From the NCBI GenBank assembly GCA_021772895.1, contig JAJFLC010000015.1:248001-312000 (forward strand): DNA of 64,000 bases. The letters run 5' to 3'. This document shows positions 49,928 to 54,511 of the stretch, in pieces. This DNA is from Mariprofundaceae bacterium. Lineage in GTDB: Bacteria; Pseudomonadota; Zetaproteobacteria; Mariprofundales; Mariprofundaceae. The notes beneath the pieces were generated by a model, which worked only from the letters and a program-made list of their open reading frames with translations, did not search any database and was not told the origin of the DNA. The position numbers and the translations under genes were made by a program. Position 1 is the first letter of the stretch; each line of letters begins with the position of its first letter.

Positions 49928-50001
49928 TGGCTGGGGGACGTGGATTCGAACCACGATTGACGGTGTCAGAGACCGCTGTCCTACCATTAGTCGATCCCCC
50001 T
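49928..50001 (-). tRNA. tRNA-Gln (anticodon CUG)
   Basis: 74 bases with encoded CCA. T-arm CGTGGTTCGAATCCACG, anticodon arm GCGGT CTCTGAC ACCGT (loop CT-CTG-AC), acceptor GGGGGA pairing with TCCCCC. Reads CAG. The first base is A opposite A72, where E. coli tRNA-Gln has a weak U-A pair. Confidence 0.9.
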
Positions 50002-50060: not shown

Positions 50061-50083
50061 CAAAAAGGGGACGCTACCCTTTT
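50061..50083. repeat. GGGTAGCGTCCCC repeat, copy 2 (reverse)
   Basis: AAAAAGGGGACGCTACCCTT, reverse complement of the motif at 6965 and 50536. The rest of 50084-50248 is AT-rich and shows nothing else. Confidence 0.55.
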
Positions 50084-50248: not shown

Positions 50249-50468
50249 AATCAATCGAGTCTGACCCCATCGATCCTATTTGGCTTGGTCAGGTATGCAG
50301 TAGAACGTTGTGAAGACTTAGGTTCTTGCCTTCCCGGGAACGCCGAGGAGGAATAGACAGAATTCATGTCCAATGAAACGGGATATGAAGTAGCTTGTTG
50401 TTTCGTAACGCTCTCAAGCATCTATCAATCAACTCTATGGGACAGCAGTGAGTCTGACCCCATTGATT
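50249..50468. repeat. MITE-like repeat, copy B
   Basis: About 220 bases from AATCAATCGAGTCTGACCCC to AGTCTGACCCCATTGATT, the uninterrupted form of the repeat at 7599. Ends are short inverted repeats (AATCAAT/ATTGATT). It contains GAGGAGGAATAGACAGAATT and an ATG with a short open frame (MSNETGYEVACCFVTLSSIY...), but this frame is not conserved as a known protein. Moved perhaps by a transposase in trans. Confidence 0.7.
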
Positions 50469-50470
50469 GG

Positions 50471-50530
50471 TTAAACACGTGCGCCGAACGACCCGGTGGG
50501 GTGATGGATACCAGATTACCAAGATTGTCA
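50471..50530 (-). pseudogene. 60-base stray fragment of an RHS gene
   Basis: Matches 52638-52697 inside the RHS gene at 57 of 60 positions, same orientation; it would encode a YD-repeat piece ([10 protein letters not shown] type). It begins 2 bases after the end of the MITE-like repeat. A relic of another RHS copy or of a rearrangement. Confidence 0.75.
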
Positions 50531-50535
50531 CTCAT

Positions 50536-50557
50536 AAAGGGTAGCGTCCCCTTTTCC
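50536..50557. repeat. GGGTAGCGTCCCC repeat, copy 3
   Basis: AAAGGGTAGCGTCCCCTTTT, directly after the RHS fragment and next to the stop of the small membrane protein. Confidence 0.55.
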
Positions 50558-50787
50558 TAGAATACGTCTTTTATCAAAGACATAGATATATACAAAAATT
50601 GAAGAGCGATTAGCAGAATCAATAGTGGTCCAGCATACTTTAGAAAAGTAGGTGCCCATGTGCCGATTTTCAAAACACCTAAATAATATGGGCCAGATCT
50701 ATTTAATATTTGTCTGTATAATTTAATAACCCATAAAAAAAGTGCCCCATGAAAAACAAGTGCAATTATTTGAATTAATAAAGTCAT
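50557..50787 (-). CDS. Small membrane protein, candidate RHS immunity protein
   Basis: 76 residues with two hydrophobic helices (LLIQIIALVFHGALFLWVI; YAGPLLILLIALQFLYISM) around a basic loop (KLYRQILNRSGPYYLG). The ATG is one base after the RHS stop, with AGAGGAA inside the RHS end, so it is translated with the RHS gene. Position right after a polymorphic toxin is that of an immunity gene. Its function is inferred only from this. Confidence 0.6.
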   Translation of the reverse strand: MTLLIQIIALVFHGALFLWVIKLYRQILNRSGPYYLGVLKIGTWAPTFLKYAGPLLILLIALQFLYISMSLIKDVF

Positions 50788-50788
50788 G

Positions 50789-53173
50789 TTATTTCCTCTC
50801 AGGGCATGTTTTTGGCTGATCGCCTAATGATCGCATAGCTTCAATGTACCCAGTAATCCCGTCTATACCAAAACTTCGAAATGATTTTAGCAACCCATGA
50901 AAACTAGCAAATTGATCAACAGAATTCCCAATGCCTTCGCCTTGTTCACCTCCTAGTGCTTCCCCTAATTGACCAGCAACTCCGGCGTGATTCTTTCCGT
51001 TCAACGCATTCATGATTCCAATTCCGGCATTTGCCATGTTATAAAGTCCGTGAGCGGCCACAGCCGTACCAATTGGAAATGCAATTGGGGCTGCAGCTCC
51101 ACCTGTTGCAACAGAAGCCACAAGCATGGCACCAATTCCACCTACTGCTTCGGCAGTACCTGCGACAAATGCTACAGAACTAGTGCCTAGACCAACAAAA
51201 TCAACAAGGCCTGTCGAATCGAACCCATTAATTGGATCACTTAATATATAGCCGTATAGATTCATATCCATCCCTGCAAAGCGGATTGGATCTTTCGCAG
51301 TCCACCGCCCAGTCTCAGGGTCATAATCCCTTGCTCCGAAACGGATGAGCTTCGTGTCTATATCATAGATGCCACCAGCAAAACCAAATGGCTGCATGCC
51401 CGGATTGGTGTCATTCGTGACGTTACCCCAATCATCATAGTCCATTCGCTGGACGATGGTGTTATCGGTTGTATTAACCACAAGGCGAGGTGAGCCAAGA
51501 TGATCGCTAATGATTCTGTAAGTGATGCCACCCTTAATCATATAGTCAGGTACATTAGGCTTGCTTCCGTAAACAAATCTTGAAGTCACATTACCTGCGC
51601 CATCAAGCTCAGCCACAGGGTTGAGCTGATCCTTGTACAAGAAGCCTTGAACCAGCGTGCCGTTGACCTTTTTACCAATCCTACGATTGCGCCCATCCAC
51701 CACATAATCAACCGTGGTCGCATTCGGCAAAGTTGCAGACATTAGATTACCCAGCACGTCATACGTATACGATGTTGTTCCAGTCGCTGCTACTTTAGAA
51801 GCTAACTCACCGTTCGCGGTATAGGTGTAGTTAATACCGTTCCAGCTTGTGAGACGATCCTGACCATCATAGAAGGAAAGAATGCCGCCAGCCTTATTGT
51901 AGCCACCAATGCGATTGCCATTGCTGTCATACTGATAAACAGCCGTGGCAACCCCATTCTCAGCGACACCCGTTAAACGCCCAGCAGTGTCATACACATA
52001 ATCCGTAGTGGTTGTCACACCTTGGATTATTTCACTTTTATGCGTAATTCGACCTAGTTTATCTCTTTGATACGAAATATTATAATTATCTACACCAAAA
52101 GAGGCATTGTAGGCACTTGTTTCACCAAATACATTGTAAGTATTTGTGGTATTTACACCTGCAATAGTCGTACCAGTTAACAGTCCGTTCTGAACATCAC
52201 GGCTCAAGGTCAGCGCACCCGAACCCGTCAGCAGACCATCAACATCATAGGTATAGGCAATCGGGGTTGCACCCACTGTTCTGGAGGTAACACGGAAGTT
52301 GTTATCGTAAGCCACAGATACCGAACCACTCACAGCACCCGCCCATGTTTCACTCAATGGAAGTGCGCCATCATAGGTATAACTCAACGTGCCCAGATCA
52401 GGCGCGGTGATAGTTGATAGATGCCCTGTCGTCGCACTATACGTGTAGCCCACACTACCTCGCGGCAGTGTCTGTGTGCTTAATCTACCAGCAGTGTCAT
52501 ACGCCAGCGCCAAGGTCTGCAAATCCGGTCTTGTCACCTGCGTGAGCTGCTTGGCAAGGTTGTATTGATAACTGGTTGCACCCGTACCAACCACAGCAGG
52601 CGGCGTGTATCCCGCCTCAAGACTGACTGCCGTGTAGTTAAACACGTGAGCCGAACGACCCGGTGGTGTGATGGATAACAGATTACCAAGATTGTCATAG
52701 CTGTAAGCAATCACCCGGCTATCCGGCAAGGTCTGACTTGTGACTCGGCCCATCAGATCATAAGCAAATGAAGTGTTTCGATTCAGCGCATCGGTCACAC
52801 TCGCCACATTACCCGCTGCATCATAGGCAATCGAGCTGCTGCGTGCCGCTGCACCCGTGCCGACCGTAGAAGCTGTCAGCCTGCCGCGCAGATCGTACGT
52901 GTAAGCAGTCGAGGCCAGACCCGGTGTGGTCTCAGATGTCGTCAGCAGATCGGTCACACTGTAGCTGACCGTGGCCGTGCGTCCGCCCGGTGTGGTGATG
53001 GTGCGTGTGCCTGCGACCACATCATCCACGATGCTGGTGACAAGCGCATTGTCTGTGATCGTGCGGGTGATCACGTCCGGTTTGCCATCGGCATTGTTAT
53101 CTGCATAAATCATTCCCAACCCTTCACACTGCATACACAAAATCATACGCCGTTTAGCCTTGCCAAACAACAT
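50789..53173 (-). CDS. RHS/YD-repeat protein, 5'-truncated, with variable C-terminal tip
   Basis: 794 residues as open frame; the true RHS sequence begins near [16 protein letters not shown] (about residue 23). Many YD repeats ([35 protein letters not shown]). The RHS core [18 protein letters not shown]...DSTGL ends near residue 656. The last 138 residues are a different domain: a glycine-rich hydrophobic stretch then a small charged end (PKTCPERK), as expected for a toxin tip. No toxin family recognised. The N-terminus with its export signal is missing, cut by the transposase, so it may no longer be delivered. Confidence 0.8.
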
Positions 53174-53187
53174 GTAAAGGAGAGGGA

Positions 53188-54075
53188 ATGGTGTTGTTTT
53201 TATCTACCCTAAGTGTCTGGTGGTTTTATCAATGGCTTTGCGCGCTTCGCTTTCACAAAACATTTAATCACGGTCATCTTAAACAGGCCCGACAGGGTGG
53301 ACACCGCTATTACCAGCCAAAACCTGCGTGGGTAAAAAAGCGGGTGATTCGTCTCAAGGCACTGATGCCTCTGGCTGGATGTCGAACCATTGCGCACACT
53401 TTTAACCAGATGCATCAGCACAAAGGCATGACGGTTGGTAAAAGTTATGTGCATAACATTATCAAGCAGCATCACTATGAGATTCAGGTATTAAGAAGAC
53501 GCATCAAACACAAACGCCCTAACCCCCTGCCCCACAATCTGATTTGGGGTGTTGATCTGACGGGTAAAACAGATTCAACAGGCAAATTGCACAATATCCT
53601 TGGTATCGTTGAACATCAGAGCCGCGCATGCCTGACACTTGCTGCGCTTACGGACAAGACATCTATAACTCTGCTGGAATACCTCATTGCCGCCATCAAA
53701 CGATACGGAAAACCACAATCTGTCCGCACCGATAATGAAGCCATATTTACCTCCAGACTCTTTCGCTTCGGGTTATGGTTTCTCGGTATCCGCCATCAAC
53801 ACACAGAGGTCGCATGCCCTTGGCAGAATGGAAAGGTTGAGCGATTTTTCGGTACGCTGAAAGAGAAACTCAATCAATGGGAAGTCAGTTCATTCGGAGA
53901 GCTGAACCACTCGCTGCATCTGTTCCGGTTCTGGTATAACGAGGTCAGGCCGCATGACTATTTGAACGGCTGCACGCCTGCCGAAGTGTGGCGTGGTTCA
54001 AAGGGAAGCCCAAACCGGGCAAAGTGGTTTGAAGCGTGGGATGGATTACTTGTCGGTTACTGGTTGCCTCCATGA
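53188..54075 (+). CDS. DDE integrase-core transposase
   Basis: 295 residues. Integrase core with D123 (WGVDLTG), D182 (RTDNEAIF) and E218 ([11 protein letters not shown]), 35 residues between the last two. The end [16 protein letters not shown] is typical. AAAGGAGAGGGA precedes the ATG. It looks intact. It lies between the RHS body and an apparent RHS N-terminus, so it probably inserted there. I see no clear terminal inverted repeats, so the element's limits are unknown. Confidence 0.85.
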
Positions 54076-54218
54076 CTGGAAATCAGGCAGTGATTTTTCA
54101 GGACTATGCGGACAAAAAACCACTGTCCGCAGGTTTACCGTGTTTTGGCTGGGAACATGGAGGGAAAATTGAGTGGTATGACACCAAAACAGTCAAAGAT
54201 GGAGAAAAAATGATATAA
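54072..54218 (+). CDS. Small ORF coupled to the transposase
   Basis: 48 residues ([20 protein letters not shown]...), starting at an ATG overlapping the transposase stop (ATGA). Hydrophilic, no known domain. The overlap suggests real translation, but the ORF is short and may be the end of the element. Confidence 0.35.
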   Translation: MTGNQAVIFQDYADKKPLSAGLPCFGWEHGGKIEWYDTKTVKDGEKMI

Positions 54219-54250
54219 AAGGGCTGAAAAACCATCACCTCAATGCCAAT

Positions 54251-54454
54251 TTAGTGCAAAAACATGCCTGAATCAGCCAGTATTTTACCGCCGGACACTT
54301 GGACGGGACAATCTACTGGAGATAATACAGCCGCATTGGAAGCCAATGGAAATAGGCCCAAGAAGCAAATGCTTAAAACTCTATAGACCCATTGATCTGC
54401 AAAAAAACTATTTAGATTATTTAAATATGAATTAGCTTGATACAAAAATACCAT
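54251..54454 (-). pseudogene. Probable signal-peptide end of the split RHS gene
   Basis: 67 residues. GGAGAGGGGA before ATG. A membrane-export segment VLSICFLGLFPLASNAA is followed by VLSPVDCPVQVSGG, which looks like the mature start of a secreted protein, and then a short tail into the mobile sequence. Same strand as the RHS body and just beyond the transposase. Reading it as the lost RHS N-terminus is inference; the middle of the gene would have been deleted. Confidence 0.5.
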
Positions 54455-54511
54455 TCCCCTCTCCCAAGACGCTTACTTTTAGGTACCTGAGTAAAAAACA
54501 ACAGGAGAGGA

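Follow-up and report, generated by a model that had tools for sequence, protein, structure and literature searches.

We consider it fairly likely that the C-terminal tip of an RHS gene in the window, i.e., the whole stretch of 64,000 nucleotides of Mariprofundaceae DNA analysed here, is a short and divergent antibacterial toxin of the DUF4225 superfamily on a teneurin-like carrier, with a 76-aa membrane protein as its immunity protein. The features of the gene pair are as follows.

50789..53173, minus strand: 5'-truncated RHS/teneurin-like protein gene, ORF of 794 aa (Pfam and PDB matches)
51290..52969, minus strand: YD-shell (TEN_YD-shell match, residues 69-628; Pfam)
51218..51331, minus strand: RHS aspartyl-protease motif R615, D628, and D652 (alignment to 9pt5; spacing)
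50792..51202, minus strand: C-terminal tip of 138 aa, proposed membrane-acting toxin of the DUF4225 superfamily (profile, hhalign, and Pfam)
50996..51196, minus strand: putative helical hairpin at residues 3-69 of the tip, hydrophobic and Gly/Ala-rich, with an AHG motif (AlphaFold2, low confidence; conserved columns)
50795..50800, minus strand: Shine-Dalgarno-like GAGAGG within the end of the RHS gene (sequence)
50557..50787, minus strand: 76-aa two-helix membrane protein, proposed immunity protein (ORF, hydropathy, and family association)

Judging from its Pfam and PDB matches, the carrier is an RHS/YD-repeat protein and, more exactly, one of the teneurin kind. The ORF matches TEN_YD-shell with 102 bits, the cut-off being 50, as well as RHS_repeat, and its closest PDB structures are the bacterial teneurin-like proteins 9pt5 (E of 5e-88) and 9ifo (2e-86), a kind of protein described previously (PMC13018210). 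R615, D628, and D652 align with R2103, D2116, and D2140, the protease residues of BiTLP (PMC13018210), with an equal spacing of 13 and 24 residues. As the R/D/D residues and their spacing are kept, the window protein is expected to cut itself after L656, between DSTGL and VDF. DSTGL corresponds to residues 652-656, and the tip follows as residues 657-794 (51202..50792).

The stop codon of the RHS gene (50791..50789) is separated by a single base, 50788, from the ATG of the 76-aa ORF at 50787. The mRNA at this junction reads ..GAGAGGAAATAACATG.., with GAGAGG (50800..50795) inside the last RHS codons, seven bases before the ATG of the small ORF. According to Kyte-Doolittle hydropathy, the 76-aa protein exhibits two strong membrane segments (3-21 and 54-72), and the tip exhibits a clear one at 11-29 and a weaker one at 32-50. 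The first-pass annotation had described a 138-residue domain after DSTGL, followed one base downstream by a two-helix membrane protein with its ribosome site inside the RHS end, and the coordinates given here bear out this layout. The GC content is 0.50 in the core, 0.47 in the tip, and 0.31 in the small ORF.

With regard to the family of the tip, the same annotation had placed it in none that it recognised, which holds at standard cut-offs only. No match was found in NCBIfam, PADLOC, or PHROGs. Among 24,736 Pfam models, DUF4225 (PF13988) is one of two matches with E<1, covering residues 5-107 with an E of 0.45 and 10.4 bits, below the curated cut-off of 25.9 bits. Taken singly, neither the pairwise nor the Pfam matches of the tip are significant, and the link to DUF4225 needs a purpose-built profile. 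A DUF4225-only profile gave the tip 12.9 bits, the best of 500 full shuffles reaching 4.8 bits and all 1,000 local shuffles scoring lower than the tip, and hhalign of the tip against a wider ten-sequence set (A2) gave a probability of 82%. With a profile of 53 DUF4225-like members, built without the window tip, the tip scored 19.2 bits (E of 3.4e-8 for one sequence). All 11,343 decoys, comprising 10,000 shuffled sequences (local or full) and about 1,340 real ORFs, stayed below this score. The bridging members were, however, not selected entirely independently of the tip, as the member search used A2, whose predecessor A1 contained it. The best decoy shown reached 13.9 bits with this profile, and the E of the tip, penalised for the 24,736 Pfam models, is still near 1e-3. 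Only the 53-member profile was clean: with smaller profiles alone, four to six decoys scored above the tip, including L069 and L078, both picked in a previous search that used a profile of this kind.

The residues G23, G46, G53, G85, D97, and S101 are invariant in A1, which comprises DUF4225 proteins and the tip, and most are also kept in A4; the glycine, HG, and D...S columns are likewise conserved in A2. The hairpin glycines, the HG motif, and the D...S pair are common to the tip and the DUF4225 proteins and are colinear in them. In contrast, the KPDAWRLFRY block, which is conserved in DUF4225 after the hydrophobic core, is absent from the tip in the alignment, and the tip is also shorter. 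As it scores below the Pfam cut-off and lacks this block, the tip falls outside strict Pfam DUF4225; on the basis of the profiles, we place it, as a short and distant member, in a wider DUF4225-like superfamily.

It had also been proposed to search for the tip on other RHS or T6SS proteins. Direct homologues were not found in 399 genomes of the phylum (chance matches only), GTDB contigs, plasmids, or viral contigs, whereas a search with the combined alignment found remote bridging tips. Among their carriers are a Gilvimarinus RHS protein (L068/L089) and a CdiA-like protein (L088), and the tips of both have an adjacent membrane ORF. DUF4225 is the sole Pfam match with E<1 in four of five bridging tips, L089 having none, and these matches are not independent evidence, since the bridging tips were found with DUF4225 in the query.

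Structure prediction yielded low-confidence helical models of the tip, with a pLDDT of 55 without and 43 with three remote relatives; AlphaFold2 places helices at residues 3-34 and 39-69, with low confidence. The alpha-pore toxins AhlB and SmhB were rejected as a fold for the tip, the Foldseek match against the PDB (E about 0.8) not being significant.

The absence of the conserved C-terminal block and the shortness of the tip relative to its relatives would also be consistent with the hydrophobic region being a membrane-entry (pre-toxin) domain, the real toxin being the last ~60 residues or having been lost by truncation, and CDI toxins do have separate entry domains (PMC11630599). We regard this as unlikely. 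Beyond the hairpin, no further domain was recognised in Pfam, NCBIfam, PADLOC, or PHROGs, DUF4225 itself is a shown toxin domain (PMC9765294), and a membrane immunity protein suits a toxin that acts on a membrane better than it suits a cytoplasmic enzyme.

A small membrane protein behind a DUF4225-like tip, as proposed here for the window pair, is a recurrent feature of the superfamily, because an adjacent ORF of 55-170 aa with at least two membrane segments is present in 22 of the 52 members with downstream sequence and in 1 of 54 control ORFs from the same loci, a contrast that is indicative rather than exact, as the controls are stop-to-stop frames and not curated genes. When at least one membrane segment is counted, the numbers are 31/52 and 6/54, respectively. 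Searches for relatives of the 76-aa protein gave two weak matches, neither of them credible. The 76-aa ORF also matches septation protein A in NCBIfam (E of 0.007; 16 bits, the cut-off being 327), which we regard as a chance match due to hydrophobicity.

The surroundings of the pair exhibit insertion elements, repeats, and displaced RHS sequence, listed below.

53174..54470, plus strand: IS481-like insertion element abutting the truncated RHS start (ends approximate, by eye)
53188-54075, plus strand: IS481-like transposase (Pfam rve_3, 1.6e-16; rve, 1.5e-7)
50470..50530, minus strand: displaced rhs-core remnant of 61 bp downstream of the pair (95% identical to 52637-52697)
50063..50082, no strand given: left copy of the repeat AAAAGGGGACGCTACCCTTT (sequence)
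50536..50555, no strand given: right, inverted copy of AAAAGGGGACGCTACCCTTT, directly after the immunity ORF (sequence)

Related genomes combine the same core, mostly at 75-84% identity, with at least six other tips, each often followed by a small ORF and a displaced core piece. Such a shared core with exchanged tips, small ORFs, and pieces of displaced core is typical of classical RHS cassettes. This arrangement in the relatives, together with the 61-bp core remnant behind the window pair, supports the reading of the tip and the 76-aa ORF as an exchangeable toxin-immunity cassette. The earlier suggestion of a membrane-acting toxin with a membrane immunity protein is upheld in part: with regard to the cassette, it is the best-supported reading; a membrane or envelope target fits and is likely.

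The truncation of the RHS gene beside the IS481-like element had been overlooked. The ATG of the RHS ORF abuts the element, and no further RHS sequence is present beyond it, where ligA follows. A relative from a genome of the same family (G005) comprises 1497 aa, with TEN_NHL at 48.9 bits and a weak FN-plug at 19.2 bits (cut-off of 27.8), and its match to the window ORF begins only at window residue 45. As this relative is longer and exhibits NHL, the window gene lacks roughly its first half. On this comparison, the gene is broken, with about half missing, including the NHL and FN-plug domains, neither of which was found in the ORF by the Pfam scan. No signal sequence or export domain was seen when the sequence of the ORF was read, and Pfam revealed no PAAR or PAAR-like N-terminus. 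The genome of the window encodes the T6SS sheath protein VipB (G000:C19:216794-217693, L101; E of 2.4e-128), and no PAAR-motif protein was found in it. Export of this copy is probably impossible and the tip is probably no longer deliverable from this gene; the truncated gene may lack expression or export.

Contig C18 of the window's genome (L096 1-870) also has a closely similar IS481-like transposase beside this rhs fragment, the two fragments being 74% identical over 46 residues. A related transposase is also present near the rhs silo of G005 (L097 8825-9712). The inverted pair of AAAAGGGGACGCTACCCTTT flanks a stretch downstream of the cassette, and five copies of this repeat occur in the shattered rhs silo of G263 (L099 at 366, 1025, 1176, 2660, and 3084). 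A second repeat, GAGTCTGACCCCAT, is found at 50257 and 50450, and also in L093 and L098. Both repeats look like REP-type elements that break up rhs genes. L028 also encodes an apparent REP-associated (Y1) transposase. A tRNA gene at 49931-50001 (minus strand), about 560 bp past the end of the immunity ORF, is a possible integration landmark. The locus illustrates how insertion elements and repeats swap, displace, and break up teneurin-like cassettes.

The 5' truncation at the IS481-like element, the downstream core remnant, the interspersed repeats, and the visibly shattered state of related silos such as L099 could also mean that the pair is a dead remnant of a decayed teneurin-like cassette, without a working toxin or immunity protein and with a merely incidental membrane ORF. 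This is quite improbable in our opinion, as the tip and the small ORF are uninterrupted, the protease residues are kept, and the small ORF is preceded by a ribosome site of its own and encodes two membrane helices; in base shuffles of this ORF, a 76-codon frame was open in 0.4% of cases, and open with at least two membrane segments in 0.05%. Nevertheless, because the N-terminal half is lost beside the IS481-like element, this copy of the proposed toxin-immunity pair is probably a displaced or decaying cassette more than a working weapon, perhaps kept for immunity or recombination.

Pairs of such a tip and a small membrane protein have precedents in DUF4225 (PMC9765294) and in the CDI ionophores (PMC11630599). 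The DUF4225 toxin of Vibrio parahaemolyticus is a T6SS toxin that is active only in the periplasm, lyses cells, and is countered by a membrane protein of 89 aa with three helices; whether the toxin attacks the membrane or peptidoglycan was left open (PMC9765294). This system, DUF4225-18764/Imm4225, exhibits a colinear Gly-rich hydrophobic region, HG, and D...S, as does the window tip, and DUF4225 toxins, like the window tip, are polymorphic-toxin tips, RHS included, and are directly followed by a small transmembrane protein that confers immunity, as is proposed for the window. The proteins that neutralise CDI ionophores have two helices and 72-100 residues (PMC11630599). These systems resemble the window pair by layout, in combining a helical membrane toxin with a two-helix hydrophobic CdiI (PMC11630599), and they differ in their carrier, which is CdiA instead of an RHS protein.

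Membrane-acting RHS-type tips are also already known, namely those of Tse5 (PMC10684867) and of the teneurin-like protein of Bacillus inaquosorum (PMC13018210). The latter, BiTLP (9pt5, 9ifo), shares with the window a teneurin YD-shell, an R/D/D autoprotease, a polymorphic tip of ~15 kDa, and a downstream gene; its tip is hydrophobic, and propidium iodide enters only when the tip is exported (PMC13018210). In contrast, the window gene is without the NHL and FN-plug halves and without any signal sequence, and the alignment to 9pt5 revealed no convincing similarity of the tips beyond DSTGL. The Tse5/Tsi5 pair of Pseudomonas aeruginosa (PMC10684867, PMC9637101) shares the RHS shell, the release of the tip by an aspartyl protease, and a cognate immunity protein. 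Tse5 is an RHS-delivered pore-former (PMC10684867) whose membrane-inserting, pore-forming tip of 149 residues is likened to that of the window by layout, the solved Tse5 chains that were found ending at the shell. The PAAR-like N-terminus and T6SS delivery of Tse5 are absent from the window gene.

Taken together, the DUF4225, BiTLP, Tse5, and CDI-ionophore precedents favour insertion of the hairpin into the membrane and its blocking by the two-helix protein, to which the structure models of the tip are too weak to add. In the intact protein, the shell would hold the tip, and its own aspartyl protease would cut it off after DSTGL. The tip would then be released on the periplasmic side of the target cell, where its Gly/Ala-rich helical hairpin could enter the inner membrane and cause a leak. 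In the producer, the immunity protein would bind the hairpin in the inner membrane and block it. By analogy with these precedents, we infer the toxicity, immunity, and membrane target of the window pair, and the tip might act as a pore; membrane action is likely. That the tip is instead an unrelated Gly/Ala-rich membrane-acting one of the Tse5, BiTLP, or CDI-ionophore kind, which also combine a hydrophobic tip with an adjacent immunity gene, and resembles DUF4225 by composition only, is highly improbable, since composition-preserving local shuffles never equalled its score with the 53-member profile and the conserved columns (glycine, HG, and D...S) follow one another in the same order, even though Foldseek and profile searches weakly reach the alpha-pore toxins AhlB, SmhB, and MakA (E of 0.3-0.8).

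The proposed membership connects the teneurin-like proteins of bacteria with the DUF4225 toxin superfamily. A more tentative reading, which we consider possible but doubtful, is that the tip is the minimal membrane-toxin core of a large superfamily that unites DUF4225, RHS, CdiA, and teneurin-like tips, each of them paired with a small membrane immunity protein. As the tip is without KPDAWRLFRY, the hairpin alone would then be the toxic part, and this would settle whether DUF4225 acts on the membrane or on peptidoglycan. Such a short natural variant could separate the membrane-active part from the rest, and the 138-residue member with its 76-residue two-helix partner is a convenient test case for the DUF4225 target.

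Other carriers and tips were observed besides the window pair. A second teneurin-like tip with the same layout (L028/L098; genome G013, contig C9, about 175594-177000) is Gly-rich, comprises 137 aa, has no Pfam match, and is followed at once by an ORF of 116-117 aa with two membrane segments; this pair is unrelated in sequence to that of the window. A near-complete teneurin-like gene in G005 (L097 1587-8475, contig C2) ends in a tip with the motif SKHYSNEAVDIRG...HIHIEYD and no Pfam match, a motif that presumably recalls M15-type peptidases. Behind the tip come a lipoprotein-like ORF of 178-183 aa and then a displaced piece of the core, which is joined by a further tip and ORF. For Ghiorsea bivora, a teneurin-like protein whose tip is peptidase-like has been named previously (PMC13018210). 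The genome of the window also encodes three more huge YD-repeat proteins of 1941-2105 aa (L092 336-6236, L093 1095-7409, and L094 1239-7061), which are not closely related to the window RHS protein and exhibit apparent N-terminal signal sequences and differing C-termini.
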